Source: Strigamia acuminata (taxonomy: Eukaryota > Arthropoda > Chilopoda > Geophilomorpha > Linotaeniidae). Taken from it: DNA of 64,000 bases. The translations under genes were made by a program, and so were the position numbers. Below the pieces are notes generated by a model. That model had not been told where the DNA came from. It searched no databases and was given only the letters and a program-made list of their open reading frames with translations. The stretch is from NCBI GenBank assembly GCA_949358305.1, contig OX442323.1:9486001-9550000 (forward strand), given 5' to 3'. Positions within the stretch are counted from its first letter, which is position 1. Each line of letters opens with the position of its first letter. Of this stretch, positions 12,308 to 56,908 are shown one piece after another.

Positions 12308-12448
12308 GATGACAAGCTACAATGAGAGAGCGGAAATAAATTCGACTTTTATTGGCAAGGCATTGGCGACAACTCGACGCTTTGCCGAGAAACTTTGCGT
12401 TTTTGCAGAGCAGCTTTTTTATGCTTTACATTTTACTTGCGGACAATA

Positions 12449-15400
12449 ATGGAAAATGCTCAATTATACGCGATTTCGAGCGCGTCTCAGAAACACCATG
12501 TGTCCATCGTGTTGAGCGAGTTCGTGCCATTGATGAAGTGGTCGAAAAACGACGTGATCTTGGACGTGGGCTCCGGCAGTGGAGACACCACTCGCAACTT
12601 GCTGCTGCCCATTTGTCCGGAGTTTGGGCAGATGGTCGGCATCGATTGCTCCGAGAAAATGGTCAATTACGCTCAGGATCATTTCCAAAACAAACAACTT
12701 TCATTCAAAAAAATGGACATTGTTGACGAGGTCATTGTTGACATGTTTCCGCAAGGCTTCACCAAGATTTTCTCCTTCTTCTGTTTCCATTGGATTCAAA
12801 ACCAGAGGTAGGGTTTTAAAATTGTGTTTTCGTTTTTAATCTTTAATGTTGATGCATTTTTAGAAAAGCTGTGTGTAATTTGTACAAGTTGCTTCAGCCA
12901 GGTGGGACATGTTTGCTCGTTTTCATCGCTCGATGTCCAATTTACACTATGTACGAGCGAATTGTTAAGAATCAAAGATGGGCGCCTTACATGAATGTAA
13001 GAGAGTCTGGCGCGTTGCACAGTTGCACGTTTGTTTATTCGTCAGTTTTTTAAAGAACTGGGAAAAATTTATACCGGTCCACCAGAACATCACCGACCCC
13101 ACAACCGATTTCAGATCAACGCTCGAAAATTTCGGTTTTTGTGTTTTGAAATGCGTGGCACCAGAATTAAGTTACGGTTACGGCTCCCCAGCGGGCTCCC
13201 CAGCGGGCTCCCCAGCGGGCTCCCCAGCGGGCTCCCCAGCGGGCTCCCCAGCGGGCTCCCCAGCGGGCTCCCCAGCGGGCTCCCCAGCGGGCTCCCCAGC
13301 GGGCTCCCCAGCGGGCTCCCCAGCGGGCTCCCCAGCGGGCTCCCCAGCGGGCTCCCCAGCGGGCTCCCCAGCGGGCTCCCCAGCGGGCTCCCCAGCGGGC
13401 TCCCCAGCGGGCTCCCCAGCGGGCTCCCCAGCGGGCTCCCCAGCGGGCTCCCCAGCGGGCTCCCCAGCGGGCTCCCCAGCGGGCTCCCCAGCGGGCTCCC
13501 CAGCGGGCTCCCCAGCGGGCTCCCCAGCGGGCTCCCCAGCGGGCTCCCCAGCGGGCTCCCCAGCGGGCTCCCCAGCGGGCTCCCCAGCGGGCTCCCCAGC
13601 GGGCTCCCCAGCGGGCTCCCCAGCGGGCTCCCCAGCGGGCTCCCCAGCGGGCTCCCCAGCGGGCTCCCCAGCGGGCTCCCCAGCGGGCTCCCCAGCGGGC
13701 TCCCCAGCGGGCTCCCCAGCGGGCTCCCCAGCGGGCTCCCCAGCGGGCTCCCCAGCGGGCTCCCCAGCGGGCTCCCCAGCGGGCTCCCCAGCGGGCTCCC
13801 CAGCGGGCTCCCCAGCGGGCTCCCCAGCGGGCTCCCCAGCGGGCTCCCCAGCGGGCTCCCCAGCGGGCTCCCCAGCGGGCTCCCCAGCGGGCTCCCCAGC
13901 GGGCTCCCCAGCGGGCTCCCCAGCGGGCTCCCCAGCGGGCTCCCCAGCGGGCTCCCCAGCGGGCTCCCCAGCGGGCTCCCCAGCGGGCTCCCCAGCGGGC
14001 TCCCCAGCGGGCTCCCCAGCGGGCTCCCCAGCGGGCTCCCCAGCGGGCTCCCCAGCGGGCTCTGTTGGTCTGCTGACCATTTTTAGTATGTCGATGCAAA
14101 TAGATCCGATATATTTCATTATCTTTTCAATTTTTATTAGCCAATTGCTGTATTTACTTATCTTCGAGTCATTTATTGCATTTTCGGTTATTTAATGCTA
14201 TTGTCATATTTTATAGCATGTGGCACCATGCTTCTTGTATCCCATTTACTTTATTTCGATTTATTCTCCAAATTGTATTATTCAATTCCGACACTAGGTG
14301 TCGCTACTCACTTGAGTGACATCCAAGATGGCTGCTGCCATGATTGAGCAGTGCCAAGCTGTTTTCTACTTTGTTTTGGACTCATTTCGTAATGTATTTT
14401 CGATTAAATCTTTTTATGTTTTTATTTAAACATTTGTCTTATGTTTCACACGGCATATAAGTGTAATTACACGGCCGTTATTTACTGCATAGCGAATTCG
14501 CGAGTATTCTGCGAGTCGCGAAATTCGCGAGTATTCTGCGAGTCGTGTTTCGACTCTGTTTTTCGTTTTTCACTCGATATTTCGAGTTATTTCCAGTGCT
14601 CCTCTGCTACAATTGGTAGCAGAGGATGGTTCTGCTCCTCTGCAGCACGCATTCCACTAATTTATCGCTTAATTTCGCGAATTTTCGCGTTTTTTTCGGC
14701 GATAATTTGATCTATTTTCAGATTTTGACGCCGATTTTGCAGTTTTTCGTCTCGAAAACGTCTTCCAGACGTTCCACCGACGTTCTACAATTAATTTTGC
14801 CGAGAATTCCGCGGGTCACGCGAATTTTCTGGCAAATTTTTGTTATTTTCAGATTCGACGTGGATTTTCTTCGAGATTCAACTCGACACCGCCGACGAGG
14901 CGTGTTCTCATCAAGAAACGGGCAAAACCCGCTGTATTCACCCCGGAGTGTCTACAGTAGCGGCGATCTGATTATTTTCGACGGATTTATTGATTTTTCC
15001 CTCGTTAATTCGAGAAGAGTTCGGGTTTTGGAAATCCGAGCTGCGTTTTTCACTTGCTTTTTCGAGAAAAGCATTTATTCACCCGTGTTTTTTACACGAC
15101 GGTGTGGTGACGATCCCACACAGATTCTCCATTTCGCCTTATTTATTTTTCAGAGTCGTAATTATTTTGTTAGAATTAAGGGGGATTTTGGTGTGGGACA
15201 TTTAGTATCCTCGGCGCCCTTCACTCGAATCCGAGTAAGCGTCGTTGTATTCCCCGATAGTGCTTGTCGTGGTACAAGTGAGGTTTCCCGCGGCTCCAGG
15301 CAGTCGAACGGACCCTCTCAGACTGGCTATCGGGGGTTATTTGATAACTTCAGAAGTTATCGCCCCTTTTCGGTATTCCGCTTCGATCACCGCGGGATCA

Positions 15401-18400
15401 GTGCTGTGTTTGTGTTGTGCATCGAACGTTTAAGTGTTTCAAATCTAGTGCGCCAATACCACTCTCGTCGCTTCTGTGATTTTTCGTGTTTGGTCTCGTC
15501 TTCGCTGCTATCATGCAGAAAGTGGGCGATCCGACCAGCGGCAAAGTTCCCGTGCTCGCCGTGGGGAACTATGATTCGTGGCAGAGGAGCATGAAAATGC
15601 TCCTCAAAGCTGAAGGCCTGTGGCACCACGTCACGGAGGACGGCGAAATCGATTATCTCAAAACCGCATCGGAAAAAGAAAAAGTGAAATTTCAACGCAA
15701 AAAGGACAAGGCTCTCGGATTAATATACTGTTTTGTCTCAGAGGCGAAGAAATCCGCCCTTGATAACTGTGATACACCGAAAGAATCTTGGGACAAGTTG
15801 GCCCAGATCTACGCGCCCAGTTCTCGCGCGCGCCAAGCCGCGATGCGCTGGGAGTTCCTCGAACTCAGCCTCAAACCGAACGAGGAAATGGCCGATTTTA
15901 TTGGCCGTGTAGATTACCACGTCAGCCAACTTAAAGCGGTCAAAGAAGAAGTGTCAGATATACATCATGCATACCAATACCTTCGACGCTTACCTCCAGA
16001 GTATTCTCAAGTTTCGTTTGCCATATATCATTGGCCGGATGACAAGTTCAAACCGAAGGAAGTGGCCGAACAGCTCCTTTCGGAATACATGCGCCTGAAA
16101 TCGATGCGTACGGACAATTTCCAACAATCCTCGGCGCATGCTTCCAACACTGATCAGTCTCGACAACGAAACCCGTCTCGACCGCCTCGTGACATTTTCA
16201 CTGTCCGATGTTTTAATTGCCAGGAATTAGGGCATTATGCAAACAAATGCCCTCATCAGAAACGCGATGGTCAGAGTCGCCCGGCTGCGCAAGTTCAACG
16301 CTCATCACGCAGCAAGAGCCGTCGTCGAAATAAAAATTCGGCGAAGCAGGACGATTCCAAACCGCGAGGCAGTTCCAGGCCACGTCGAGATGCGAACTTC
16401 TTTGTCAATTGTCCCCAAGTAATCGAGCGCCCCATCGCACATTTTATGCAGTCAAATGAGTGGATCGTCGACTGCGGGGCCACCGACCACGTCTCTCACA
16501 TCCAATCGTGGTTTACGAACTTTGAACACATTACGCCATTCGACATCGAGCTTGGACAGGGCAAGTCCAAAGTGACCGGACGGGGCAATGTACGACTTCA
16601 GACCTCGATTGACAATTTTGACTGTTTCGTAACTTTACATAATGTCTTGTTTGCACCGAACTTTGAGGCGAATCTAGTCTCCGTGAGCAAAATCGACAGA
16701 AATAAGTTTCACATTCATATTTTCAACGGGGAGATCAATGTTTACCAAACAGACATTCGCTCTTCAGTTCTCCGAGCGAAAGAGAAAGGCGGATTGTATT
16801 ACGTGGACGGACTTTGCGCTACTCCGACTATTTCGACAACGGTTTCAACGTCTCATCAACCGGCTCCGACAGTTCCTGTCAAGACTTTAGTCACTTCAGA
16901 GGTTGATTTCGAGCCCATTCCGAAACCGAAGCAGAAATCGAAAAATAAAACGGAGTTTATGACGGATTTTCGTATCGAGTTGTCACCTTCTAACGTCGTG
17001 AACCAAATTCCGACCCCAACTCCTACCAATCCGTTACCAAATCCTAATCCTCCGCAAGTCCAGCTACCATCTCCCGTCCCATCCTATGCTGACGTCTCAC
17101 AGTCAATCCCGACATCTCCCGCTGCCAAAAATCCTTCTCCACCCAAAAAGGAGACTGTTGCTAATCCGACGGCAAAGAAAGATGCAACCGGCTTATGGCA
17201 CAGCCGACTTGGCCACCTTCATACCAACGCCATGCGTCTTCTGGCAGCCAATGATCAGGTTTATGGCATGGAGCCTGCGGAAGTACGCCAGGATTTGGCG
17301 TGCAACGACTGTCGTATTGCAAAATCCATCCGCGCTTCGCATAAGCCCGATCCAAATCCGATTACCACCAAGGCACTGGACCTCTTGCACATGGACGTCT
17401 GGGGGCCAGCGGAAACGACTTCAATTGGTGGAGCTCGATTTGTCTTCACGATCATCGACGACGCGACCAGATATTGCTGGATTACACCGATTGCCCAAAA
17501 ATCCCAAGTTTTTGGTGTCTTTAAGGATTTTGTCGCTCGGATTGAACGCGTCGCCAATACTCGAGTCAAAGCCATTCGTTCTGACCGCGGCGGGGAGTTC
17601 ATGTCTAACGAATTCCTCAATTATCTCCGAGAGAAGGGCATCGAAGGTCAACGCACCAACCCAAACTCGCCCGCTATGAACGGCACTGCGGAGCGGATCA
17701 ACAGAACAATGGCCGACAACGTGAGATCGATTTTAAGCGAAACGAAACTTCCGAACGACTTGTGGGCGGAAATCGCAGTCACATTCGCTTATATAAAGAA
17801 CCGATCTCCACATTCTCGTTTGAACAATCAGATCCCTTACATCTTGTGGCGACAGCGTGCCCTTTCACTACGACATCTGCGCAAGATAGGATCGAAATGT
17901 TGGGTACATTTTACTACCCCAGGTCGCAAGAAACTTCAGATGCGTGCCTGGGAAGGTTACATTGTTGGATACGCTGTCGGCACACGGGGATATCGAATCT
18001 GGAACCCACTTGACGATAAAATCACAGAATCAACTCATGTCCGAATTGATGAAAAGCAATCCTATCGTCGAACTCTTCGAAATGGAAACGGAAACGGAAA
18101 TCTACGGCAGTACATACCGTACTCGAATGTTGACCACAGTCCGAACGTTCAAGATATCCCGCAGTCGACTGTCACATTCGACGAGAACATTCAGTATCTC
18201 GATTGGCCAAAAGGATCGGACTCGGACCATGAATACTCATCATCAGACGAAGAGTCTGAGATGCCGCCATTAGAAGAGAGTTCGAGCTCGGCAGCATCTG
18301 CACAATTCCAGACACCGGAACGTCAGTTTCAAGAAGCATGTGCTTTGAGATTGCCGAGTTCCGACAGCAATCTAGGTGATGACACGGATCGTGACATTGA

Positions 18401-21400
18401 TGATATCGATGAAGTTTCTCTCGTGCCAATATCTAACTACACTTCCCCTCACATGTCACCGCAAACTTCACCTCAAACATCACCCCCGTTATCTCCACCT
18501 AGTTCCCCAAGCAGATTTGTGACGACACGGAGAAGAGCGGGTACTTCCGTTCTCCAACATACAATACCCGTTTTCGATGCTGCACCTATGTCTCCGGCTC
18601 CGCTTCAAGGAACTGAAGGAACTGAAGTGGCACCTACATCTGCACACCGAACCGCATTCATGTGGAGATATGTCGGAGGAGATTCGCATTGCGCACGTTG
18701 GAGACGTGAAGAACATCTCCGCAAGGTTCAGAGACCCGGAAAGATTGACACCGATGTATATTATTTCCCGGAACCGGATGTGCGACTACGTTCACGCGGG
18801 GACATCGAGAAATATTGTCAATTTAATCATCTCGAATATAACCCGGAACTCTTTTTCTTTGGCAGTATTGAATATACTACGCCTTCGATCCCTGCCAGAC
18901 ATGCGGCTCACCTGTGTCGGACGGAACCCGCTTCATTCGCCGAAATTCCAAAATTTCATGATGCGCCAAAATGGCGCGAAGCGATCGATGAAGAACTCGG
19001 AACTTTCAAGGAGCGTGAGGTGTACGTTGAAGTACCGAAACCGCCTGATACAACGATCCTCGGATGTAAATGGATTTTCAAGTTGAAGTCCGACGCCACC
19101 GGCAAAGTTACTCGTTACCGTGCCCGCCTTGTCGCTCAAGGTTTCCGACAAACTCTCGGCGTCGACTACGATGAGGTTTTCAGCCCCGTCGTGAACTTTG
19201 TTCTCATCCGGATGTTCTTTTGCTTGCTTGTCATTCTCCGCGGATGGAAGGACGCACACCTCGACGTAAAGTGTGCCTACCTTTATGGCGAGCTCGAGCA
19301 CAAGGTATATATGCGGATTCCGGCAGGTGCGACTTGCACACACCCGAACAACGTTTGGCTTCTGATAAAATCCCTCTACGGCCTCCATCAATCCGGAAGG
19401 CAATGGTTCGAGAAGCTAGACGAAACTCTTCGAGCGCTCGGATTTCGAAGACTGCCCGGATGCAATTGTGTTTATTCTTTTGGGACTTCAGCGTTGATGC
19501 TGGTCTACGTGGACGACATCGTTCTTTTCTACGCTAACGACACCGTCCTCGATCGACTCATCGTTTTGATCAGCACCAAGTTTCAAATCGTCAACTTGGG
19601 TCCCATCACGAAATTGCTCGGCGTTGAATTTATCCGAGAGGCTGGCAAGACTTTCATTAGCCAGCGGATGTACATCTCGAAGATCGTTAAAAAGTTCGGA
19701 ACCGTCGCAAATAACCTCGTCAAGGTCCCTGTTACTCCGGGAACAACGCTCACTCGGGGACCGACCGAGAACTTGATCGATTTCCCGTATAGATCGCTCA
19801 TTGGATCGCTATTGTTTTTAGCGTCGCGAACACGTCCCGATATCTTATTTTCCGTGATTTACCTGTCGCAGTTCAACACGTGTTATACTCAGGCACACAT
19901 CAAAGCCCTACTCCAGGTACTTCAGTATGTCTCGAACACCATTGATTATTGTATCGAATTATCGGGATGTGGATCAGGACAACTGTGGGGATACACAGAC
20001 GCATCGTGGGCATCGGATACCGCTACATCGCTTAGTTTCGGAGGCTTCATTTGCTACATCGGACAAACGCCAATTGGATGGACCTGCCGAAAACAGACCA
20101 CCGTGGCTTGCTCAACAATGGAAGCCGAGTTCCTCGCTCTTGTTGATGCAGTTAAAGAATTTTATTGGCTCCGACATGTTTACTCCGAATGTCCGATGTT
20201 AGATCCGATTTCTCGTCCCGTTATCTACTCCGACGCGCTTGCTGCTATCCAATTCACCGCGAACGATATCGAGAACAGCAAGACGAAACACATCCGCGTC
20301 AAGTTCCATTGGCTTCGGGAGTGGTACACGGCGGGACAGTTTGAACTTCGGAAAGTGCCCGGCGATCTGAACGTCGCCGATATATTTACAAAGTGGCTCG
20401 GCTCGGAAAAACTTCGTTCACTCATCTCGAGAATCTTCCGGCCTTGAGTACTTTTGACATTCCTAGTTTAGTTTACCCGACATCGAGGATCATCGAGTTC
20501 CAGTGGGAATATTCGGGCTTCCGTAGAGTTCTTCAATGACAGTACCCGGCTCGGTGATTCGAACTTTATCTTTTGTCTTTTCTGATAACACACTGTAATT
20601 CCAGTACCCGTTCTTTATTTCCCCCGAATTTATTTACATCGAAGGGGGGATTTGTTGGTCTGCTGACCATTTTTAGTATGTCGATGCAAATAGATCCGAT
20701 ATATTTCATTATCTTTTCAATTTTTATTAGCCAATTGCTGTATTTACTTATCTTCGAGTCATTTATTGCATTTTCGGTTATTTAATGCTATTGTCATATT
20801 TTATAGCATGTGGCACCATGCTTCTTGTATCCCATTTACTTTATTTCGATTTATTCTCCAAATTGTATTATTCAATTCCGACACTAGGTGTCGCTACTCA
20901 CTTGAGTGACATCCAAGATGGCTGCTGCCATGATTGAGCAGTGCCAAGCTGTTTTCTACTTTGTTTTGGACTCATTTCGTAATGTATTTTCGATTAAATC
21001 TTTTTATGTTTTTATTTAAACATTTGTCTTATGTTTCACACGGCATATAAGTGTAATTACACGGCCGTTATTTACTGCATAGCGAATTCGCGAGTATTCT
21101 GCGAGTCGTGTTTCGACTCTGTTTTTCGTTTTTCACTCGATATTTCGAGTTATTTCCAGTGCTCCTCTGCTACAGGCTCCCCAGCGGGCTCCCCAGCGGG
21201 CTCCCCAGCGGGCTCCCCAGCGGGCTCCCCAGCGGGCTCCCCAGCGGGCTCCCCAGCGGGCTCCCCAGCGGGCTCCCCAGCGGGCTCCCCAGCGGGCTCC
21301 CCAGCGGGCTCCCCAGCGGGCTCCCCAGCGGGCTCCCCAGCGGGCTCCCCAGCGGGCTCCCCAGCGGGCTCCCCAGCGGGCTCCCCAGCGGGCTCCCCAG

Positions 21401-23173
21401 CGGGCTCCCCAGCGGGCTCCCCAGCGGGCTCCCCAGCGGGCTCCCCAGCGGGCTCCCCAGCGGGCTCCCCAGCGGGCTCCCCAGCGGGCTCCCCAGCGGG
21501 CTCCCCAGCGGGCTCCCCAGCGGGCTCCCCAGCGGGCTCCCCAGCGGGCTCCCCAGCGGGCTCCCCAGCGGGCTCCCCAGCGGGCTCCCCAGCGGGCTCC
21601 CCAGCGGGCTCCCCAGCGGGCTCCCCAGCGGGCTCCCCAGCGGGCTCCCCAGCGGGCTCCCCAGCGGGCTCCCCAGCGGGCTCCCCAGCGGGCTCCCCAG
21701 CGGGCTCCCCAGCGGGCTCCCCAGCGGGCTCCCCAGCGGGCTCCCCAGCGGGCTCCCCAGCGGGCTCCCCAGCGGGCTCCCCAGCGGGCTCCCCAGCGGG
21801 CTCCCCAGCGGGCTCCCCAGCGGGCTCCCCAGCGGGCTCCCCAGCGGGCTCCCCAGCGGGCTCCCCAGCGGGCTCCCCAGCGGGCTCCCCAGCGGGCTCC
21901 CCAGCGGGCTCCCCAGCGGGCTCCCCAGCGGGCTCCCCAGCGGGCTCCCCAGCGGGCTCCCCAGCGGGCTCCCCAGCGGGCTCCCCAGCGGGCTCCCCAG
22001 CGGGCTCCCCAGCGGGCTCCCCAGCGGGCTCCCCAGCGGGCTCCCCAGCGGGCTCCCCAGCGGGCTCCCCAGCGGGCTCCCCAGCGGGCTCCCCAGCGGG
22101 CTCCCCAGCGGGCTCCCCAGCGGGCTCCCCAGCGGGCTCCCCAGCGGGCTCCCCAGCGGGCTCCCCAGCGGGCTCCCCAGCGGGCTCCCCAGCGGGCTCC
22201 CCAGCGGGCTCCCCAGCGGGCTCCCCAGCGGGCTCCCCAGCGGGCTCCCCAGCGGGCTCCCCAGCGGGCTCCCCAGCGGGCTCCCCAATGTTTAAGTGTC
22301 TGCTGCTCAAAAACTAAGAGGGTTAGAGTGTTGTGCCTTTTAGGGTTTGTAGAGGAGAAGGTCCTTTACATCATTTAGTTTTTTTAATAAAAAAACTGAT
22401 CAATTTGTTGAGATGTTGGGGTTTGAAGTTGTGGCACCAGATTTGGAAATTTAGTACAAGTCTTTTTTGTGCCATATTCAAATGCTTGCTGCTCGAAAAC
22501 TAAGAGGAGTAGAGACTTGTGCTGTTCATGGTTTGTTTAGGAGAAAGTCCTCTATCTTTTCGTGTAAACACCATTGAAATCCTTGGTAAAAAAAAATTGG
22601 GATTTGTTCTATCTGTAGTTTGGGCAAATGTGAAGGTGTTGCAAACTTCAGCCTGGTGAATAAATTGTAGTACTACAGTATTATCTAATTATACATGACA
22701 AATAAATATTTTTGTTGAAAAATAGATTGACTATCCAGAACCGGTACCAATACCGGTGCCAGTACCGCTTTCGGTAGTAGTACCGACCCCAATACCGGTG
22801 CCCATTTTTCATTCGGGACCGGAACCGAATATAGTACCGGAAAAAAATTTTAGTACCGAATACCGGTACCATGAAAACCGTCCGGTACTGCAATCCCTAA
22901 ACTTGACGTTAGGTTACATCTAAAAAAAAAAACTTTTTCAAGACTTTGTCAAGATAAAAAGACGAACATTAGGAAATAGGAAAAAATATATATATTCTTT
23001 AACATTTTGTTCTTTAAAATAGGAAAATTTTATTTTTGAAGACAACTATTGAGCAACAAAACGGAATTCGATCCCATTTCGTTTTTGCACACCTCAAGCG
23101 CATAATTGTCGGCTTCAACTCGAGCATTCTCATGACCGATCAGGTGAAATTCCTCAATCCAGATGGTGATTAA
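12449..23173 (+). CDS. JHAMT-like SAM-dependent methyltransferase, disrupted by two Copia insertions
   Basis: Exons 12449-12807, 12864-12996 and 13056-13154, then a fourth exon at 23042-23173 after a 9.9-kb intron. Motif I is VILDVGSGSGDTTRNLLLP, followed by VGIDCSEKMVNYA and, later, LLQPGGTCLLVFIA. The layout matches the juvenile hormone acid O-methyltransferase family, which methylates JH or farnesoic acid in arthropods. I cannot judge substrate specificity. Exon 3 ends FCVLKC and exon 4 continues with HFVFAHLKRIIVGFNSS, as the family does. The giant intron contains a 12-bp minisatellite and Copia element 1. Copia element 2 sits at the end of exon 4. In frame, exon 4 reaches a TAA (23171-23173) at the insertion point. 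A different frame continues after the element at 30566 with RYQLLLYFYSN and a stop, which resembles the usual family C-terminus. The last residues are therefore probably displaced and the gene may be inactive. The GTGGCA donor of exon 3 is weak. Confidence 0.68.
13182..14062. repeat. 12-bp minisatellite (GGCTCCCCAGCG)n, left part
   Basis: About 73 apparently perfect tandem copies of a 12-bp unit. All six reading frames are open (for example Gly-Ser-Pro-Ala on plus and Gly-Glu-Pro-Ala on minus), so the long predicted frames are artefacts of the repeat. The array ends exactly at the 5' LTR of Copia element 1. Its last five bases, GGCTC, are that element's target duplication. The array lies in the third intron of the methyltransferase gene. 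Confidence 0.95.
14063..14611 (+). repeat. 5' LTR of Copia element 1
   Basis: 549 bp, starting TGTTGGTC and ending CTCTGCTACA (TG...CA ends). It contains a TATA-like box (CATATAA, about 14454-14460), an LTR start that can fold (GGTC-TGCT-GACC) and the motif CAAGATGGCTGC. Relative to the 3' LTR it has one extra 27-bp tandem copy of a segment containing GCGAGTATTCTGCGAGTCG. Confidence 0.95.
14614..14631 (+). promoter_or_regulatory. Primer binding site, initiator tRNA-Met (element 1)
   Basis: TGGTAGCAGAGGATGGTT, two bases after the LTR. It is the exact complement of the 3' end of initiator tRNA-Met (AACCATCCTCTGCTA-CCA) as I know it from animals. Copia elements usually use this tRNA, though often an internal fragment of it. 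Confidence 0.85.
14632..15512 (+). other. Long 5' leader of Copia element 1 with degenerate repeats
   Basis: About 880 bp between the PBS and the gag start, with diverged repeated stretches (TTTTCAGATTYGACG..., CGCGAATTTTC...). A 322-residue open frame crosses it out of frame with gag, but it is low-complexity and I do not call it a gene. Element 2 has a leader of the same character, so this is likely an RNA element (packaging or translation control). That role is inference. Confidence 0.5.
15513..20447 (+). CDS. Copia gag-pol polyprotein with internal MBD-like domain (element 1)
   Basis: Single intact frame of 1644 aa; ATG chosen at 15513. In order: gag (UBN2-like, residues about 25-190); CCHC zinc knuckle C233-C246 (CFNCQELGHYANKC); aspartic protease with DCGA at 320-323; GAG-pre-integrase zinc finger near 563 (HSRLGHLH...CNDC); integrase core with D628, D691 and E727 (35 residues between the last two); a Ser/Pro-rich linker; a segment at about 1060-1118 that resembles a methyl-CpG-binding domain (W1063, DVYYF at 1081, RSR at 1093); reverse transcriptase with YVDD at 1332; RNase H with TDASWAS near 1496. 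All domains run as one polyprotein without a gag/pol frameshift, as in Copia. The Cys in the protease triad (usually Ser or Thr) and the MBD-like insert are unusual; both are shared with element 2. Confidence 0.95.
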   Translation: MQKVGDPTSGKVPVLAVGNYDSWQRSMKMLLKAEGLWHHVTEDGEIDYLKTASEKEKVKFQRKKDKALGLIYCFVSEAKKSALDNCDTPKESWDKLAQIYAPSSRARQAAMRWEFLELSLKPNEEMADFIGRVDYHVSQLKAVKEEVSDIHHAYQYLRRLPPEYSQVSFAIYHWPDDKFKPKEVAEQLLSEYMRLKSMRTDNFQQSSAHASNTDQSRQRNPSRPPRDIFTVRCFNCQELGHYANKCPHQKRDGQSRPAAQVQRSSRSKSRRRNKNSAKQDDSKPRGSSRPRRDANFFVNCPQVIERPIAHFMQSNEWIVDCGATDHVSHIQSWFTNFEHITPFDIELGQGKSKVTGRGNVRLQTSIDNFDCFVTLHNVLFAPNFEANLVSVSKIDRNKFHIHIFNGEINVYQTDIRSSVLRAKEKGGLYYVDGLCATPTISTTVSTSHQPAPTVPVKTLVTSEVDFEPIPKPKQKSKNKTEFMTDFRIELSPSNVVNQIPTPTPTNPLPNPNPPQVQLPSPVPSYADVSQSIPTSPAAKNPSPPKKETVANPTAKKDATGLWHSRLGHLHTNAMRLLAANDQVYGMEPAEVRQDLACNDCRIAKSIRASHKPDPNPITTKALDLLHMDVWGPAETTSIGGARFVFTIIDDATRYCWITPIAQKSQVFGVFKDFVARIERVANTRVKAIRSDRGGEFMSNEFLNYLREKGIEGQRTNPNSPAMNGTAERINRTMADNVRSILSETKLPNDLWAEIAVTFAYIKNRSPHSRLNNQIPYILWRQRALSLRHLRKIGSKCWVHFTTPGRKKLQMRAWEGYIVGYAVGTRGYRIWNPLDDKITESTHVRIDEKQSYRRTLRNGNGNGNLRQYIPYSNVDHSPNVQDIPQSTVTFDENIQYLDWPKGSDSDHEYSSSDEESEMPPLEESSSSAASAQFQTPERQFQEACALRLPSSDSNLGDDTDRDIDDIDEVSLVPISNYTSPHMSPQTSPQTSPPLSPPSSPSRFVTTRRRAGTSVLQHTIPVFDAAPMSPAPLQGTEGTEVAPTSAHRTAFMWRYVGGDSHCARWRREEHLRKVQRPGKIDTDVYYFPEPDVRLRSRGDIEKYCQFNHLEYNPELFFFGSIEYTTPSIPARHAAHLCRTEPASFAEIPKFHDAPKWREAIDEELGTFKEREVYVEVPKPPDTTILGCKWIFKLKSDATGKVTRYRARLVAQGFRQTLGVDYDEVFSPVVNFVLIRMFFCLLVILRGWKDAHLDVKCAYLYGELEHKVYMRIPAGATCTHPNNVWLLIKSLYGLHQSGRQWFEKLDETLRALGFRRLPGCNCVYSFGTSALMLVYVDDIVLFYANDTVLDRLIVLISTKFQIVNLGPITKLLGVEFIREAGKTFISQRMYISKIVKKFGTVANNLVKVPVTPGTTLTRGPTENLIDFPYRSLIGSLLFLASRTRPDILFSVIYLSQFNTCYTQAHIKALLQVLQYVSNTIDYCIELSGCGSGQLWGYTDASWASDTATSLSFGGFICYIGQTPIGWTCRKQTTVACSTMEAEFLALVDAVKEFYWLRHVYSECPMLDPISRPVIYSDALAAIQFTANDIENSKTKHIRVKFHWLREWYTAGQFELRKVPGDLNVADIFTKWLGSEKLRSLISRIFRP
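20641..20652 (+). promoter_or_regulatory. Polypurine tract of element 1
   Basis: GAAGGGGGGA immediately before the 3' LTR TG; the expected site of plus-strand DNA priming. Confidence 0.75.
20653..21174 (+). repeat. 3' LTR of Copia element 1
   Basis: 522 bp, starting TGTTGGTC and ending CTCTGCTACA. It matches the 5' LTR base for base as far as I can read, apart from lacking the 27-bp duplication. Confidence 0.95.
21175..22287. repeat. 12-bp minisatellite (GGCTCCCCAGCG)n, right part
   Basis: About 93 apparently perfect copies of the same unit as 13182-14062, starting with the target-duplication copy GGCTC. Removing element 1 and one GGCTC joins the two parts in register into a single array of about 1,989 bp (about 166 units). 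Confidence 0.95.
22288..23041 (+). other. Remainder of the large methyltransferase intron, with old repeats
   Basis: No coding exon. Two related segments of about 110 bp (22288-22400 and 22475-22590) share TGCTGCTC-AAAACTAAGAGG and GGAGAA-GTCCT blocks. At about 22736-22895 there is a run of degenerate GGTACCGGTATTGG-type repeats. The 3' splice acceptor of exon 4 is at 23040-23041. Confidence 0.6.
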
Positions 23174-23711
23174 TGTTGGTCTATAAGACCGTGACATGTC
23201 TCGATGTGATATAGAATCACATAATGATCTTTCATTTCGGTGTATATTTATACATTTATAATTATCCAGTCTGTTTTGTTAATATTCGATATTTATTATC
23301 ATTGATTGTATTTATGCATGCAGCACCATGCATTCGTTAGACTTTCTATTCAATTCCCAATGTATTATGTTTTTTTAATGCCATGCATCGCCACCAGAGT
23401 GTGTCCCACTCTCTCTTGTTTTCTTCCAACATGGCCGCACACAGTGCTTTGTGCTGTGTGATTTTCTCAACTCCAGAATGGAGCCTATTTGTAAGTTATT
23501 TCATTTCCATTAAATGTTTTATTATTTTAGTTGTTAGTGTTCATTATTAGAACACCTTTTAGTCCATCTCCAGCGCATATAAGCGGCCTTAAGCCGCGCG
23601 CCCGTCTCGTACGCATTGCCGTTATCGTCGTCGCCTCGTACGTGTGTGAAACACGCCTATCGCTTCCTTTTTCGGTGTGAAAACCGAACTGCGCCGCTTT
23701 CCTCTGCTACA
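23174..23711 (+). repeat. 5' LTR of Copia element 2
   Basis: Starts TGTTGGTC with a short inverted repeat (GGTCT-ATA-AGACC) and ends CTCTGCTACA. It holds a TATA-like CATATAA near 23576-23582 and the motif CAACATGGCCGC, comparable in position to CAAGATGGCTGC in the element 1 LTR. Confidence 0.95.
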
Positions 23712-23713
23712 AG

Positions 23714-23731
23714 TGGTAGCAGAGGATGGTT
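23714..23731 (+). promoter_or_regulatory. Primer binding site, initiator tRNA-Met (element 2)
   Basis: TGGTAGCAGAGGATGGTT, two bases after the LTR; identical to the element 1 PBS and complementary to the initiator tRNA-Met 3' end. Confidence 0.85.
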
Positions 23732-24797
23732 CCTTGCTAATCCACATTTGTTTTGCTAATTTTTCGACGTAATATTCGCAAAATTTGCGAATTTTGCGCC
23801 GGAATTGTTCATTTGTAGGTTTACGACGATTTTCGCCCCGTGTTTCGTATTGGAGACGTTAGATACGCGTCGCCGTCGTTCCACGGCTGCCTACAACGTT
23901 TTCTACACGATTCGACGCCTAATTTTGTCGAAAATCACGCGGGATTCGCGGATTTCCAGACAAATTCATTTATTTTTGCAGACGTTTCGTCAATTTTCGC
24001 CCAGATTCGTGTCGAGGACGTTTCGAGACGTACTGCCGACATTTATAGACGACCAGTGTTGTCTATTTCATCGTTTTTCCTGCCTAATATCGTCCGAAAT
24101 TCCGCGGTCTCGCGAATTTCGAGGCGAATTCTTTTATTTTTTTCAGATTTCGCGTCGATTTGTTTCGACAACGTCCCGACGACGATTTATTCCTCGAAAC
24201 GAGACGATTCTCGCTGTGTTACACCCCGGCGTGTACACAGTATCGCCGAACTCATTAACACGGCGATTTTTCGACGATTTTTGCGTATTTTCGTGAAGAG
24301 CCTCGATTTATTCGAGAAGAATTTGGATTTTCGAATCCAAATTGCGTTTTTCAAACGGGTTTTTCGAGAAAACCCGCTCGTGCCTTTATCACGAGCTCGC
24401 GTGACGTTACGCGAGAGATTCACCGACCTTTTCGCCTTCCCTGTCGTGAAACTCTGTTAATTATTAAGATAGTTTTAAGATTTTTGGAGAGGGTCCTTAT
24501 TAGATTCGCAACAGCTCTTCGGACATTCCGTCCACCGCTGTTGTTGTATTCCAAGGCAAGGCTGAGCCCTGCGCCACCTAGCATTCCCGCGGCCCCAGGT
24601 GGTCACAAAGGACGCTAGGGGGACACTTGCTTTGGGTTATCAACTGATTATAGCATCAGTTCCCCTTTGTCGGATATCCGCTTTGACAGTGCTTCGTTTC
24701 GTGTCACCGAGAGCTTCATTGTGTGCAGTGCTACGACATCGCCGTCGCCATTCTCTGAGCCTTTGCGTTTTGTGCGGTGAGCTGAGTTTACTCCAGC
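23732..24797 (+). other. Long 5' leader of Copia element 2 with degenerate tandem repeats
   Basis: About 1.07 kb. At least two diverged copies of a unit of roughly 150 bp are visible (about 23930-24060 and 24090-24200), each running through TCGAAATYnCGCGG, GCGAATTTC, TTTATTTTTnCAGA and TCGACAACGT-like blocks. A 206-residue open frame crosses it and looks like a by-product of the repeats. Confidence 0.5.
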
Positions 24798-27700
24798 ATG
24801 CGGAAGTCAGGAGAATCCTCGATGGGAAAAATCCCTATTTTGGGCATTTCGAACTACGAAACGTGGCAGCGCTCGATGCGCATGCTCCTCAAAGCGGAGG
24901 GCCTCTGGAGGCACGTAACAGAAGAGAAAGAGGCTGAACATTTATTAACTTTGACCGACAAAGAAAAAGAACGATTCGCGACGAAAAAGGATAAAGCACT
25001 CGGCATTATCTACGTCCACGTGAGCGAGGCGAAACGTTCTGTGTTGGATGTCTGTAACACCCCCAAAGAGGCTTGGGAAGCGTTATCCAAAATCTACGCC
25101 CCTAGTTCTCTGGCGAGACAGGCAGCCATGCGGTGGCAATTCTTGAGTCTTCACCTCGAGGCGAACGAGGAAATGGTCGATTTCATCGCACGTGTCGACC
25201 ACCACGTCCGCCAACTTAAGGACATTCAAGAAGACGTATCCGATAAGCATCATGCATACCAGTATTTAAACCGCATACCGCAGGAATACGCCCAAGTGAC
25301 ATTCGCCATCTATCACATGCCTTTGGCGGACTTTACGCCAAGCAAGGTTTCAGAACAGTTGATATCCGAATATTTACGTCTCAAATCGATGGGTTTGGCC
25401 CATAATTCTTCTTCAACATCGGTGCACGCGTCCGCCAAAGACCAATCGCGACCTCGGAATGATTCTCGTCGTCGACGACCGCTGTCATCCGTGAAGTGCT
25501 TCAACTGCGACCAAATGGGGCACTACGCTAACAAATGTCCCCTTCCTCGGCGCACTGACCCAAATCAGTCTTCGGCTTCGTTCCAACGCTCTAGAAGTAA
25601 GAGCAAGAAGCCTAATAAGAATTCTGCGCCGAAAGTTGATGACACGCGTCCCCGAGGCAACTCGCGTCCTGTGCGGAAGACGATTTTCTTCGTGAACGCA
25701 CCGCAAGTGGTTGAGCGCCCGGTTGCTCACTTTATGCAATCCAACGAGTGGATTGTAGATTGTGGCGCTACAGACCACGTCTCGCATGTACGATCATGGT
25801 TCTCCGACTTTACGAACATTGTACCTTTCGACATTGAATTAGGCCAGGGAAAATCCCAAGTTACTGGCAAAGGAACCGTACAATTATTGACACGCGTAGA
25901 CGATTACGACAGTATTGTGGTCTTGACGAACGTTTTATACGCGCCGAGCTTCGAAGCCAATTTGATCTCGGTGTCCAAGATCGACAAGACCCGTCACCAT
26001 ATCCACATTTATAATGGTGAAGTTAACATCTATGAATCGTCGATTGAGAGTCCCATCCTACGCGCACGGGAGAAGAGTGGCCTTTATTATGTGGACGGGT
26101 TGTGCTCTAATCCGGCTGTCTCGACATTGATTTCTCCAATCACTCAACCTGAGCCTGTACAGACTTTCGTAACGACAGAGGTTGAATTCGAGAACATCCC
26201 GAAGCCTAAAAAGCAACAGTCAAAGCAACGTGACATTTCGGACTTTAGAATTCAAATGCCACCAATGCCAAACCAGAAGTCAATTCCGGTAGTGACCAAT
26301 CCATTGCCTATTCCGCAATCCTTACCTCCTATCCACAATGAGCCACCTACCCCATCCTATGCTGATGTAATACAGCAAATCCCTTCCACACCTTTGCCAG
26401 TGATCTCCAATCCTTGCAATGTCTCTCCGTCACAAAAAGAGATAATCCCGAAACCTTTTCAATCCCCGAAGAAGGTTATCGCCAATCCTGCTTCAATCAA
26501 AGATGCAACTGGTTTGTGGCATAGTCGTCTTGGCCACTTACACACTAATGCGATGCGATTGTTGGCGAACAACGATCATGTGCACGGTCTCGAGCCAGCT
26601 GAAGTACGCCAAGAACTGGCTTGCAACCACTGTCGGATTGCAAAATCAACTAGGGCTTCGCACAAACCGGATCCACATCCTTGCACGACACAACCACTAG
26701 ACCTTCTACACATGGACGTGTGGGGGCCGGCTCCTGTGACCTCTTTTGGTGGTGCTCGTTTTGTCTTTACCGTCATCGACGATGCGACGAGATACACCTG
26801 GATAACGCCCCTTGCACAGAAATCACAAGTTTTTGAATGCTTCAAAGACCTCGTTGCCAGACTCGAACGGGTTGCAAATACCCGCATCAAAGCGATTCGG
26901 TCTGACAGAGGAGGTGAATTTATGTCCAATGAATTTCTTCAATACCTTAAAGAAAAGGGGATCCAGGGTCAGCGAACAAATCCGTCATCACCACAGATGA
27001 ACGGAACTGCCGAGAGAATCAACAGGACGATGGCCGACAACTTTCGATCTATACTCGAAGAAACACAACTTCCAGAGGGCCTGTGGGCTGAACTAGCGGT
27101 TACATTCGCCTACATCAAAAATCGCAGCCCACATTCACGATTAAAGAATGAAGTGCCATACATCCTCTGGCGTCAACGTGCCCTATCACTTCGACATTTG
27201 AGAAAGATCGGATCCAAATGTTGGGTACACTTTACTGCACCAGGCCGAAAGAAACTCGATGCTCGGGCCTGGGAAGGATTTTTGGTTGGATATGCAACGG
27301 GAACACGAGGATATCGTGTGTGGAACCCCATAGATAACTCGATAACGGAATCCATTCACGTTAAAATAGACGAGTATCAATCCTACCGAAAATTGCTTAG
27401 AAATCGTAATGGTCGCCAAAATCAAACTTTCGACGATCCAGATGCTGACCGACAACAAAGAGTATCATTCGACGACGACGTACATTACGTCGATTGGCCC
27501 AAACGGACAGATTCGGATGACGGATCGTCAAATGGTGAATCTGATGATGATGATGACGACGATGGAAATGGATCGGTTTCGAGATCGATATCCATTCCTT
27601 GTGTTCACATTCCTCCACTTAATACTCCGGAACGTCAACTTATAGATGCATGTGCATTAGCATTGCCCAGTTCAGCAAGCGTGGGCCGCTCAGCATCATA

Positions 27701-29801
27701 CCCGATTCTTTATCAAGAGGAAGGACAGGACACGGATGAAGATGTTGGACAGATCGTCGAGGAGGCAATTCAACCGGACGCAGCACAATTGCATCAAGTT
27801 CGATCCCCTCACATCTCACCAGAAACGTCTCAAGCAAGTTCTCCCGGACTCTCGCCGCCGGGATCACCACTACGTTTTGTCACAACACGTAGAAGAGATG
27901 GCCGAAACGTTTTGCAGCAAATGATGCCAATTTTCGATCAAGGTGCTTTATCTCCGTTACCTCCTGGTCCAACTCATGTTGCAGCCCCGTCAGCGGGAAA
28001 AACGTCTTTCTTTTGGCGCTATATCGGCGGAGATACAGTCTTTAGACGATGGGTTCGGGAGGAGCATCTTCGGAAAGATCAACGACCCGGCTGCATCGAT
28101 ATCGACGTTTATTATTTCCCGGAACCGAATCTTCGACTGCGTTCGAGACGAGACGTTGAAGAATTCTGTGTTATGAACGATCTCCCCTACGACCCGGAAC
28201 TGTTCTTTTTCGGCAATATGGAACACACGCTGCCCACGATTCCTGGTCCTCGTCACGTCGCACATCTATGTCGCACGGAACCGTCATCGTATGCCGAAAT
28301 CCCAAAATTTCATGACGCCCCAAAATGGCGCGAAGCCATCGATGAGGAGTTAGGGACATTCAAAGAAAGAGAAATTTACGTTGAAGTCCCGAGACCGCCC
28401 AAAACCACAGTGTTGGGCTGTAAATGGATTTTCAAGTTAAAATCGGACGCGGCCGGCACCATAACTCGTTATCGCGCAAGACTCGTGGCCCAGGGCTTTC
28501 GACAAACCCTGGGAGTGGACTACGACGAGGTCTTCAGTCCGGTCGTAAACTTTGTGCTCATCCGACTTTTCTTCTGTCTTCTGGTTGTTTTGAAAGGGTG
28601 GAAAGATGCGCACCTCGACGTCAGGTGTGCATACCTGTACGGGGACCTGAAGCACAAGGTGTACATGCGCATCCCGGCAGGTGCAACCTGTACGAATCCC
28701 GACAACGTATGGCTGCTTGTTAAATCCCTCTACGGACTTCACCAATCAGGGAGGCAGTGGTACGAAAAGTTGGACGAGTCACTTCGAGCCCTCGGTTTCC
28801 GGAAAATGCCCGCCTGCAATTGCGTGTATATCTACGGCAATTGTGCAGTCATGCTGGTGTACGTCGATGACATTGTTCTGTTTTACGCTTCCGACACCGT
28901 GTTAAACCGAATTATCCAACTTATCACCTCGAAGTTCGATATCGTCAACCTCGGACCCATCACGAAACTATTAGGAGTCGAGTTCATCCGAGATATGGGG
29001 CGCACCTTTATTTCACAACGCGCCTATATTGCCAAACTGGTCAAGAAGTTTGAAGTATTGACGAATCGACTCGTGAAAGTCCCAGTTACACCCGGGACGA
29101 CACTCGTGAGGGGACCCACCGACAACTTGATTGACTTTCCATATCGATCGCTGATCGGATCGCTTCTGTTTCTGGCTTCGAGGACGCGCCCCGACATCTT
29201 ATTTTCCGTCATTTCGCTGAGTCAATTCAATACGTGCTACGACAAAACCCACATTCGTGCCCTTTTGCAAGTACTCCAATACGTGGCAAACACCATGGAT
29301 TATTGCATCGAACTTTCAGGCTGCACGTCCAGTCAGCTCTGGGCGTATACGGATGCGTCGTGGGCAAGCGACTTGGCTACGTCTTTAAGTTTCGGCGGTT
29401 TCATAACTTATATCGGAAATGTGCCTATTGGCTGGTCGTGCCGAAAACAATCAACGGTCGCATGTTCAACTATGGAAGCGGAGTTTATCGCCCTAGTTGA
29501 ATGTGTGAAAGAAACTTACTGGCTCGATCACATTTTCACCGAATTTCCGATCCTCGACCGTATCTCGCGACCGATTATTTACTCCGACGCCCTGGCCAGT
29601 ATTCAATTTACATCGAATGACGTGGAGAATGCTAAAACAAAGCATATCCGCGTCAAATACCATTGGCTCAGGGAGTGGTTCACGGCAGGATGTTTTGATC
29701 TTCGTAAAGTGTCCGGTGAACGGAACGTCGCAGACATATTCACCAAATGGCTCAGCTCTGAACGTCTGCGATCACTAATTTCAAACATCTTCCGACTGTG
29801 A
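24798..29801 (+). CDS. Copia gag-pol polyprotein with internal MBD-like domain (element 2)
   Basis: Single intact frame of 1667 aa, closely parallel to element 1. Gag is followed by a CCHC knuckle from C234 (CFNCDQMGHYANKC), protease DCGA from D321, the HSRLGHLH...CNHC finger, integrase core (MDVWGP, RSDRGGEF, NGTAERINR), an acidic and Ser/Pro-rich linker, the MBD-like segment (W1085, DVYYF at 1103, RSRRDVEEF), RT (YVDD at 1355) and RNase H (TDASWAS). The MBD-like segment keeps the same residues as element 1 despite divergence in the flanking linker, which implies purifying selection on it. No stops or frameshifts were seen. Confidence 0.95.
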   Translation: MRKSGESSMGKIPILGISNYETWQRSMRMLLKAEGLWRHVTEEKEAEHLLTLTDKEKERFATKKDKALGIIYVHVSEAKRSVLDVCNTPKEAWEALSKIYAPSSLARQAAMRWQFLSLHLEANEEMVDFIARVDHHVRQLKDIQEDVSDKHHAYQYLNRIPQEYAQVTFAIYHMPLADFTPSKVSEQLISEYLRLKSMGLAHNSSSTSVHASAKDQSRPRNDSRRRRPLSSVKCFNCDQMGHYANKCPLPRRTDPNQSSASFQRSRSKSKKPNKNSAPKVDDTRPRGNSRPVRKTIFFVNAPQVVERPVAHFMQSNEWIVDCGATDHVSHVRSWFSDFTNIVPFDIELGQGKSQVTGKGTVQLLTRVDDYDSIVVLTNVLYAPSFEANLISVSKIDKTRHHIHIYNGEVNIYESSIESPILRAREKSGLYYVDGLCSNPAVSTLISPITQPEPVQTFVTTEVEFENIPKPKKQQSKQRDISDFRIQMPPMPNQKSIPVVTNPLPIPQSLPPIHNEPPTPSYADVIQQIPSTPLPVISNPCNVSPSQKEIIPKPFQSPKKVIANPASIKDATGLWHSRLGHLHTNAMRLLANNDHVHGLEPAEVRQELACNHCRIAKSTRASHKPDPHPCTTQPLDLLHMDVWGPAPVTSFGGARFVFTVIDDATRYTWITPLAQKSQVFECFKDLVARLERVANTRIKAIRSDRGGEFMSNEFLQYLKEKGIQGQRTNPSSPQMNGTAERINRTMADNFRSILEETQLPEGLWAELAVTFAYIKNRSPHSRLKNEVPYILWRQRALSLRHLRKIGSKCWVHFTAPGRKKLDARAWEGFLVGYATGTRGYRVWNPIDNSITESIHVKIDEYQSYRKLLRNRNGRQNQTFDDPDADRQQRVSFDDDVHYVDWPKRTDSDDGSSNGESDDDDDDDGNGSVSRSISIPCVHIPPLNTPERQLIDACALALPSSASVGRSASYPILYQEEGQDTDEDVGQIVEEAIQPDAAQLHQVRSPHISPETSQASSPGLSPPGSPLRFVTTRRRDGRNVLQQMMPIFDQGALSPLPPGPTHVAAPSAGKTSFFWRYIGGDTVFRRWVREEHLRKDQRPGCIDIDVYYFPEPNLRLRSRRDVEEFCVMNDLPYDPELFFFGNMEHTLPTIPGPRHVAHLCRTEPSSYAEIPKFHDAPKWREAIDEELGTFKEREIYVEVPRPPKTTVLGCKWIFKLKSDAAGTITRYRARLVAQGFRQTLGVDYDEVFSPVVNFVLIRLFFCLLVVLKGWKDAHLDVRCAYLYGDLKHKVYMRIPAGATCTNPDNVWLLVKSLYGLHQSGRQWYEKLDESLRALGFRKMPACNCVYIYGNCAVMLVYVDDIVLFYASDTVLNRIIQLITSKFDIVNLGPITKLLGVEFIRDMGRTFISQRAYIAKLVKKFEVLTNRLVKVPVTPGTTLVRGPTDNLIDFPYRSLIGSLLFLASRTRPDILFSVISLSQFNTCYDKTHIRALLQVLQYVANTMDYCIELSGCTSSQLWAYTDASWASDLATSLSFGGFITYIGNVPIGWSCRKQSTVACSTMEAEFIALVECVKETYWLDHIFTEFPILDRISRPIIYSDALASIQFTSNDVENAKTKHIRVKYHWLREWFTAGCFDLRKVSGERNVADIFTKWLSSERLRSLISNIFRL

Positions 29802-30010
29802 ACTCTTACCGAGACCTTATCGTGACATTCTTTATTTCTTATACCGGATTATGAGGATCATCGAGTTTCTGAGGGAATATTCGGGCTTACGTAGTGTTTT
29901 TCAATGATAGTACCCGGCTCGATGATTCGACCTTATTATTTATCTTTTCCCGTAAATTATACTGTAATTCCAGTTTTTGCATAGGCTTTTCCCCTGATTC
30001 TATTTCCATC

Positions 30011-30022
30011 GATAGGGGGAAT
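30011..30022 (+). promoter_or_regulatory. Polypurine tract of element 2
   Basis: GATAGGGGGA just upstream of the 3' LTR; same position as in element 1. Confidence 0.7.
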
Positions 30023-30560
30023 TGTTGGTCTATAAGACCGTGACATGTCTCGATGTGATATAGAATCACATAATGATCTTTCATTTCGGTGTATATTTAT
30101 ACATTTATAATTATCCAGTCTGTTTTGTTAATATTCGATATTTATTATCATTGATTGTATTTATGCATGCAGCACCATGCATTCGTTAGACTTTCTATTC
30201 AATTCCCAATGTATTATGTTTTTTTAATGCCATGCATCGCCACCAGAGTGTGTCCCACTCTCTCTTGTTTTCTTCCAACATGGCCGCACACAGTGCTTTG
30301 TGCTGTGTGATTTTCTCAACTCCAGAATGGAGCCTATTTGTAAGTTATTTCATTTCCATTAAATGTTTTATTATTTTAGTTGTTAGTGTTCATTATTAGA
30401 ACACCTTTTAGTCCATCTCCAGCGCATATAAGCGGCCTTAAGCCGCGCGCCCGTCTCGTACGCATTGCCGTTATCGTCGTCGCCTCGTACGTGTGTGAAA
30501 CACGCCTATCGCTTCCTTTTTCGGTGTGAAAACCGAACTGCGCCGCTTTCCTCTGCTACA
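30023..30560 (+). repeat. 3' LTR of Copia element 2
   Basis: 538 bp, apparently identical to 23174-23711; followed by the target duplication ATTAA. Confidence 0.95.
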
Positions 30561-30565
30561 ATTAA

Positions 30566-55404: not shown

Positions 55405-56908
55405 ATGTCGTCGTATCGTTTTCACCAAGCGGTCGGTAGCTCGTTAAAAACCTTTTGTTAGAATGGAATTGAATTGAATTGAATTTGCGAAGGCGAGAGA
55501 CGGGCTCCTCGACGTGCTGCGAGAGGCGACGAGGCGCAACTGCAACGCGGAGGACGACGACGGCCTCACACCGACACTTTGGGCAGCGTTTCACGGCAAC
55601 TTGGACGCGCTGAGGCTCCTGGTCGGTCGCGGGTAAGTTGTGTAGCGTGTCCCGTCCCGTCCCGTGCGTGCCGGATGCACGCGGGCAGCGAAGCGTTGGC
55701 GCTGGCGTTTCTTTGTCTCGAGTGTGTGTTTGTTTGTTTGTTGTTGTTGCAGGGGAGATCCGGACAAGTGCGACTTTTACGGGAACACGGCGCTGCACCT
55801 GGCGTCGGCCGAGGGCCAGTTGAACGTCGTGTGTTTCCTGGTGAATTTCGGGGCCAACTTGTGGGCTCTGGACAATGATCTTCACACGGCCAAGGAGCGA
55901 GCGGCCATCGCGGAGCGCGAGGACATCCTCCGCTTCCTGGACAACGCGATGGCGGAGCAGGGCATGAAGAACAAGAAGCTAGTGGCCAGTCTGAAGGAGA
56001 AGGCGCTGGTCAAGGCCGAGAAGCGCGTGAAGACGAGCGAGAAGCAGCACAAAGAGGCGGAGAAACGCGCCAGGGACGACGAGAAGAAGATGGCGAAGCA
56101 GAGACAGCGCATGTACCAGCACGAGCCGCGCAAGGACTCGGCCATCGTCCACCAGGCGCCCTCCAAGTTCTCGGACATCGTCAACACGGGCACGGCGAGC
56201 AAGAAGAGCAGCTTGGGTCTGCTCGGCGTGCAAAGGAAACTCGGGCGCGCCAGGGACGATAAACTGGCGGCGCACAATTTGAGCGAGTTCCAGGTGGCCG
56301 AGAAAGTGAACGACGGCCAGCGCTCGATGCGCTCTCTGTCGGGCTTGAGGCGCGACTCGGAGGTGCTCTACGTTCCCAAGTACAGCGCCGCCAAGCCGCA
56401 GTTGCAGGACATTTTCGAGAACAAACAGCAGCCGTTGTCGTTGTCGCGCGCCCGCAGCGAGCCCGAGTTTGTGCCGTCGGCGCCACCAAGTTTGTTCGAG
56501 CGACCGGGCTTCGGGAGCATGGCGTTCCGTCAGTCCATCAGCGGAACGCTCATGTCGCTGCGACAGGATTTCGACCGCATGGCGCCGGATGCGAATGGGA
56601 ATTCGAGCGCGAACAAGTCGTCGTCGTCCGACAGGGGCAGCATCGGCAGTGCGGACAGCTTGGACGACGACAATTCGAGCGGGGAGAACGAACCCATCAT
56701 CACGTTTTTAGCCTCGCTCGGACTGTCCGAGTTCATTCCGAGATTTCTGGAGGAACAGATCGATCTGGACGCGCTCTTGCTGCTCACGGACGACGATTTG
56801 CGCAACATCGTGCAGCCGTTGGGGCCGCGCAGGAAACTCATGCAGGCGATCCAGGAGAGGAAAGAGGCGATGGACAACCCCGGTCAAGTGTTCGATTCGC
56901 GCTTGTAG
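55405..56908 (+). CDS. USH1G: USH1G / SANS ankyrin-SAM scaffold
   Basis: Three exons: 55405-55431, 55493-55632 and 55753-56908; 440 aa (human 461). The N-terminus ([20 protein letters not shown]) leads into ankyrin repeats ([52 protein letters not shown]). A basic coiled coil and a disordered middle follow, including SMRSLSGL and [10 protein letters not shown], and then a SAM domain ([40 protein letters not shown]). It ends in DSRL, a class I PDZ ligand (human ends DTEL). SANS scaffolds harmonin and myosin VII at actin-based protrusions and periciliary membranes. Note the shift to higher GC than its neighbours. Part of its 3' end and flank is duplicated downstream at 58076. Confidence 0.93.

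Follow-up and report, generated by a model that had tools for sequence, protein, structure and literature searches.

A methyl-CpG-binding domain inside intact Copia retrotransposons of the centipede Strigamia acuminata

A 64,000-nucleotide stretch of the Strigamia acuminata genome (contig OX442323.1, positions 9,486,001 to 9,550,000 of the forward strand; the window) contains a complete Copia retrotransposon, element 1, with a methyl-CpG-binding domain (MBD) inside its polyprotein. Element 1 is a new, recently active S. acuminata member of an already described family of MBD-bearing Copia elements. We consider it probable that this intact and recently mobile arthropod Copia uses a captured host MBD as the C-terminus of its integrase, where the domain would tether the pre-integration complex to methylated, CpG-dense DNA and so favour landing there. 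A second, diverged MBD-Copia (element 2) lies in the same window at 23174-30560, and its MBD region is 66% identical to that of element 1 over a 79-aa piece.

Identity of the domain

Element 1 has long terminal repeats (LTRs) with 0 mismatches and 27 gap columns between them, a 5-bp target-site duplication (TSD), a primer binding site, a purine tract and an open frame (Table 1). Its Pfam domains follow the order Copia gag, CCHC, Pol_BBD, gag_pre-integrase, rve, SH3_retrovirus and RVT_2. The initial annotation had proposed an MBD-like domain at 18655..18870, between integrase and reverse transcriptase (RT). That range fits, as profile, relatives and fold place the domain at 18699-18860, after the integrase SH3 domain and before RVT_2, and the quoted motifs are present at residues 1074-1127 of the translated frame (W1074-R-R-E-E-H-L-R-K ... 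D1092-V-Y-Y-F ... R1104-S-R ... Y-C ... FFF).

The assignment depends largely on relatives of the element. In the S. acuminata assembly (237,517,015 bases, with the window on contig C11; published as qcStrAcum1.1, PMC10556566), 150 of 1092 candidate matches were scored, and all of them exceed the Pfam MBD cut-off, at 35-50 bits; both window elements lie outside these 150. By our own count, 124 of the 150 fall in open frames of at least 1300 aa, and the relatives whose translation was followed carry the MBD at the same place in the polyprotein as element 1. Among 23 aligned domains, 22 match PF01429 at E<=0.01. The profile of the window lineage aligns with that of the other Strigamia MBD-Copia elements with a probability of 98.4 (hhalign, E=8.2e-15), and the best profile match is MBD2 (2ky8, E=5.6e-15), although the window lineage's own profile finds MBD2 in the PDB only at E=0.021. 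The nearest MBD type is MBD4 for the single locus L001 and MBD2 for the profile. A predicted model of the element 1 domain (predicted local distance difference test, pLDDT, 81.6) aligns uniformly with known MBDs, Foldseek ranks 1-31 and VIA rows 1-36 (PDB entries) all being MBD/TAM, while the Foldseek E-values are weak (best 0.04). Because of the relatives at 35-50 bits, the profile link and the fold, the element 1 domain is confirmed, from sequence profiles and a predicted model, as an MBD with the alpha/beta MBD fold.

Several single-sequence results speak against this identification, and would suit a chance resemblance of an ordinary integrase C-terminal region to an MBD. The match to PF01429 that had been expected is significant only through the relatives: the excised element 1 piece scores 19.5 bits (E=0.00074) against a cut-off of 21 bits, and in a Pfam scan of full-length element 1 the MBD is not listed at E<=1. 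The element 2 piece alone reaches E=0.11 against PF01429, and a single-sequence PDB search with it returned only NADH-dehydrogenase matches (E 0.2-0.41) and 0 MBD, a negative that is overcome only because of the profile comparison. Against chance stand the scores and shared position of the domain in relatives, the profile link and the fold, together with the comparison with ordinary integrase C-termini that the annotation had called for: Copia polyproteins from a fungus (P0002) and from Trichuris (P0119) gave no match to our own MBD profile, whereas spider Copia do have such a domain. Chance resemblance is ruled out by relatives, profiles and fold, and its remaining probability is negligible.

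The residues that contact methylated CpG in MBD2 were also found to be kept. R1081, D1092, Y1094 and R1104 of element 1 align with the MBD2 contacts to 5-methylcytosine in CpG (5mCpG), namely two arginine fingers, an aspartate and a tyrosine, and both window elements retain Arg, Asp, Tyr and Arg at these columns. We infer that the element 1 MBD binds methyl-CpG. It shares fold and contact residues with the domains of MBD2, MBD4 and MeCP2, but differs from them in one additional loop residue before DVYYF, in PEP for the SPSG turn, in FFF for FDF, and in its location inside a polyprotein. Across 13 Strigamia rows the first arginine, the aspartate and the second arginine are present in 13/13, while the tyrosine is present in 10/13 and replaced by valine in two and isoleucine in one; among 30 loci fetched from the genome matches, 25 have valine or isoleucine at the MBD2 tyrosine position. 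In the families of L042, L043 and L044 the tyrosine is replaced, yet their Pfam MBD scores are above that of the window family.

Descent, selection and segment exchange

Capture of an MBD by an arthropod retrotransposon family, described as 'functionally active' in the paper's title, was published in 2019 (de Mendoza, Pflueger and Lister, 2019, Genome Res 29:1277-1286), which overturns the annotation's belief that no Copia with this arrangement had been described. In the titles, abstract openings and passages of the literature consulted, an MBD in a retrotransposon is reported only by that paper and papers citing it, and no paper on transposable elements of S. acuminata was found. The elements of the 2019 family are reportedly Copia, named CopiaMBD, and were reported in S. 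maritima and in one spider; their insertions in S. maritima are reportedly CpG-dense, and their young copies are said to lie in sites that are CpG-dense relative to other LTR elements. Element 1 resembles them in being a Copia with a captured MBD inside the polyprotein of a single gag-pol frame, in its congeneric host (reportedly S. maritima in the 2019 family), in having relatives in spiders and in insertion sites that are CpG-dense, here against random genome; its host here is S. acuminata, and the likeness is one of description rather than of element sequences. Gypsy (Ty3/Gypsy) chromoviruses offer a further parallel, as they carry at the integrase end a chromodomain, a chromatin reader proposed to serve targeting; they belong to a different superfamily, and their domain reads histone marks and not DNA methylation. 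Copia and other retrotransposons have also acquired cytosine methyltransferases (de Mendoza 2018, PMC5890265; PMC12344493), likewise a captured component of host DNA methylation, but a writer enzyme instead of a reader.

A public protein search with element 1 residues 1060-1420 gave 3185 matches. A precomputed PF01429 is present in 12 of the 120 proteins listed; two of these come from Araneus ventricosus, and the spider polyproteins P0018 and P0068 are among the carriers. On 43 chosen rows (42 of the listed proteins plus P0002) our own MBD profile scored above 25 bits in 35 and between 18.5 and -1.0 bits, which is faint or doubtful, in six. The RT tree was built from 57 rows, comprising 46 with a clear MBD (35 from the database, 11 from Strigamia), 6 faint and 5 without; its proteins are 45 of the 120 listed plus P0002, the remaining 75 (largely Tanacetum by name) being left out, and L001 was dropped as its match was too short. 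Three plant rows stood outside the MBD profile test and were taken as MBD-less from their listed domains. The 46 clear and 6 faint rows form one clade (99/98), which includes proteins from Araneus, Stegodyphus and Trichonephila. As the MBD rows form a single clade, the tree is consistent with, and most simply explained by, a single capture of the MBD by an arthropod Copia lineage, in a sample that was picked with an MBD-spanning query and hence under-samples MBD-less animal Copia. The search that supplied P0002, run on proteins with the MBD region of L042 as query, gave one fungal Copia among 292 candidates. Within the tree, P0010, P0011, P0013, P0016, P0027 and P0030 form one clade (100/99) that has lost most contact residues; any MBD-like domain that these proteins have at this polyprotein place is faint at best, and decay or a new function is possible.

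The MBD is under purifying selection, with dN/dS (the ratio of nonsynonymous to synonymous divergence) between Strigamia families of 0.03-0.08 in the five pairs, out of eight, for which dS was estimable, one of these five having four differences only. The linker before it evolves quickly, with dN of 0.10-0.80 between Strigamia families and 0.10-0.51 in six window-lineage pairs (residues 880-1057).

The linker and MBD also appear to have travelled together. Family B (L058) and element 1 are identical at 85 of 116 fourfold sites across residues 920-1159, but at only 90 of 273 outside this range (Fisher p=3e-13). L068 is nearer to family C over most windows of the alignment, and vs element 1 it is identical at 30/33 fourfold sites in residues 1080-1159 and 224/406 outside (p=3e-5). 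In the RT tree element 1 groups with C and L068 (100/91), and B less firmly with element 2 (92/89). The excess at fourfold sites, taken with these placements, indicates from sequence comparison that the linker-MBD segment has moved between Copia families. No such excess was seen in the pairs of element 1 with C, L069 or element 2, and L068 has further stretches resembling the element 1 family (family A), so that regions other than the MBD have been exchanged as well.

One speculative extension, which we think rather improbable, treats the linker-MBD block as a targeting cassette open to exchange: the Copia families of this centipede would swap it by template switching and then alter it at the contact residues, so that co-resident families would read different DNA states. 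The window families have the full 5mCpG set, the L042, L043 and L044 families are Tyr-less, and most contacts are gone from a related clade found in other species; if the idea were true, it would amount to a partitioning of epigenomic niches among retrotransposons.

Insertion sites and the role of the domain

Element 1 has been mobile recently. A 128-aa piece around its MBD is identical at seven places, each in a 1655-aa frame (150 scored of 1572 candidates), and perfect 5-bp TSDs flank all 18 sites studied, eight of the element 1 family and ten of the element 2 family, with both window copies included. Besides the window copies, they cover 7 of the 9 places of family A found at 99-100% identity and 9 of the 12 places that resemble element 2 and score equally; the sites omitted are C13:52692, C151:79282, C6:15626340 (likely a duplicated segment), C12:9134265 (shorter frame) and C99:61271. 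Over 500 bp on each side, the median CpG density is 8.05 per 100 bp (n=18); 20 random kb, drawn from ten large contigs, give 4.15 (Mann-Whitney p=0.0018). GC content differs as well (0.487 vs 0.378, p=0.004), and the observed/expected CpG ratio does not (1.33 vs 1.20, p=0.23).

The sites are varied. Five of the 18 lie inside recognisable retroelements, one of which is another MBD-Copia, and three in tandem arrays (a 5S rRNA gene array, a 9-bp array and a 12-bp array). The first of these three, an element 1 copy at C8:2.27 Mb (L079, L080), sits inside a 5S rRNA gene of an array whose tandem unit is 202 bp long. An apparent enrichment of repeats at insertion sites (8/18 vs 1/20 random kb, Fisher p=0.0067; Pfam was run only on 10 flank frames from 10 of the 18 sites and 9 random frames from 9 of the 20 regions) was withdrawn as evidence, because tandem arrays occur in the random regions L116 and L125 too, and a low-complexity one in L112, all uncounted. 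Among the 150 best-scoring element-1-like places, which of the 1572 candidates are the close copies, a hand tally gives 22 on the Y chromosome (C13), for which its length predicts 6.5 (p=7e-7), and 14 on the X (C12), for which it predicts 6.1 (p=0.005).

In the mechanism we favour, protease cleavage would leave the MBD as the integrase C-terminus, the MBD would anchor the pre-integration complex to DNA that is methylated and CpG-dense, and new copies would land there preferentially. The annotation's proposal that the MBD lets the element choose methylated chromatin is plausible, in that it agrees with the CpG-dense flanks; these support methylated-site targeting without proving it, the comparison being with random genome and not with MBD-less LTR families. 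Two observations count against it: dN of the MBD exceeds that of the integrase and RT in several pairs, and the window outside the elements itself averages 6.36 CpG per 100 bp (92 bins of 500 bp), so that region matters too. It may accordingly be, as a serious though somewhat doubtful possibility, that the dense flanks owe nothing to the MBD and reflect GC-rich older retroelements, insertion-tolerant regions and selective loss of insertions in genes. The GC difference, the sites in retroelement coding sequence (5/18) and tandem arrays (3/18), and the excess of best-scoring copies on Y (22/150) and X (14/150) all fit this, but the copies are near-identical and young, which leaves little time for selection.

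The domain could also have kept its fold while reading DNA without methyl selectivity, and would then grip DNA in general or be a structural component of the integrase. We regard this as unlikely: valine or isoleucine at the tyrosine column in 3 of 13 Strigamia rows, the contact-poor database clade and a CpG observed/expected ratio at flanks like that of random sequence would be in keeping with it, but the contact set of Arg, Asp, Tyr and Arg is intact in both window families, the five pairs that allowed an estimate show a low dN/dS for the MBD, and the 2019 title speaks of functional activity. A role in countering host silencing instead of targeting, in which the MBD might occupy methylated LTRs or compete with host MBD repressors, is very unlikely; the domain is built into the polyprotein, with integrase on one side and RT on the other, and is no separate product, although the domain is near MBD2/MBD4 in profile and the host has methyltransferase genes. 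From 11 matches, S. acuminata has four DNMT1-like loci (L031-L034), in whose frames we read BAH-like and catalytic pieces, and a single DNMT2-like locus (L036). In the congener S. maritima, a fraction of 0.758 of 719 annotated transposable elements is given as belonging to the highly methylated group (PMC7343188).

Targeting by the MBD can be approached from this genome. In this chromosome-scale assembly, several MBD families occur together in many copies that are identical and intact, some with and some without the methyl-contact tyrosine. As one host and one methylome are combined with different reader domains, whether the MBD steers integration can be tested from insertion sites and a methylome, and this natural comparison bears directly on that question.

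Features and surroundings of the elements

Table 1. Coordinates of features in the window (el., element).
Feature	Position	Strand	Details
12-bp tandem array, left half, around el. 1	13182..14062	+	one CpG per unit
Left TSD, el. 1	14058..14062	+	GGCTC
Left LTR, el. 1	14063..14611	+	549 bp; contains 27-bp tandem duplication
Primer binding site, el. 1	14614..14629	+	TGGTAGCAGAGGATGG; presumably matches initiator tRNA-Met 3' end
gag-pol open frame, el. 1	15480..20447	+	1655 aa, no stop; first ATG 15513
Copia gag (Retrotran_gag_2), el. 1	15591..16103	+	Pfam 94.4 bits
Integrase core (rve), el. 1	17370..17672	+	Pfam E=7e-10
Integrase SH3-like domain, el. 1	17856..18065	+	Pfam E=9.7e-22
Fast-evolving linker SH3-to-MBD, el. 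1	18066..18698	+	dN (residues 880-1057)
MBD, el. 1	18699..18860	+	ORF residues 1074-1127; PF01429, profile and fold matches, translation
Arg1081, el. 1	18720..18722	+	aligned with chicken MBD2 R24 (first arginine finger)
Asp1092-Val-Tyr1094, el. 1	18753..18761	+	aligned with MBD2 D34/Y36
Arg1104, el. 1	18789..18791	+	aligned with MBD2 R46 (second arginine finger)
Reverse transcriptase (RVT_2), el. 1	19017..19736	+	Pfam E=6.5e-57
Right LTR, el. 1	20653..21174	+	522 bp
Right TSD, el. 1	21175..21179	+	GGCTC
12-bp tandem array, right half	21175..22287	+	
Left TSD, el. 2	23169..23173	+	ATTAA
Left LTR, el. 2	23174..23711	+	538 bp, identical to right LTR
gag-pol open frame, el. 2	24786..29801	+	1671 aa
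MBD, el. 2	28050..28211	+	translation; similarity to el. 1 MBD
Right LTR, el. 2	30023..30560	+	538 bp
Right TSD, el. 2	30561..30565	+	ATTAA

Pieces of host genes occur around the elements at 12326-12811, 30748-31239, 34247-34738, 55646-56908 and 58760-59422 (methyltransferase, fasciclin, Kelch, ankyrin-SAM and TAPR1-like), and hence both insertions lie in a gene-bearing stretch. Element 1 is inserted within a 12-bp array of 73 + 93 units. The array unit is GGCTCCCCAGCG, and a 42-base exact pattern of it occurs 2288 + 1816 times genome-wide (overlapping matches). At C4:2963406-2965519 the array forms an inverted pair, and it may be part of a different repeat that has inverted arms.
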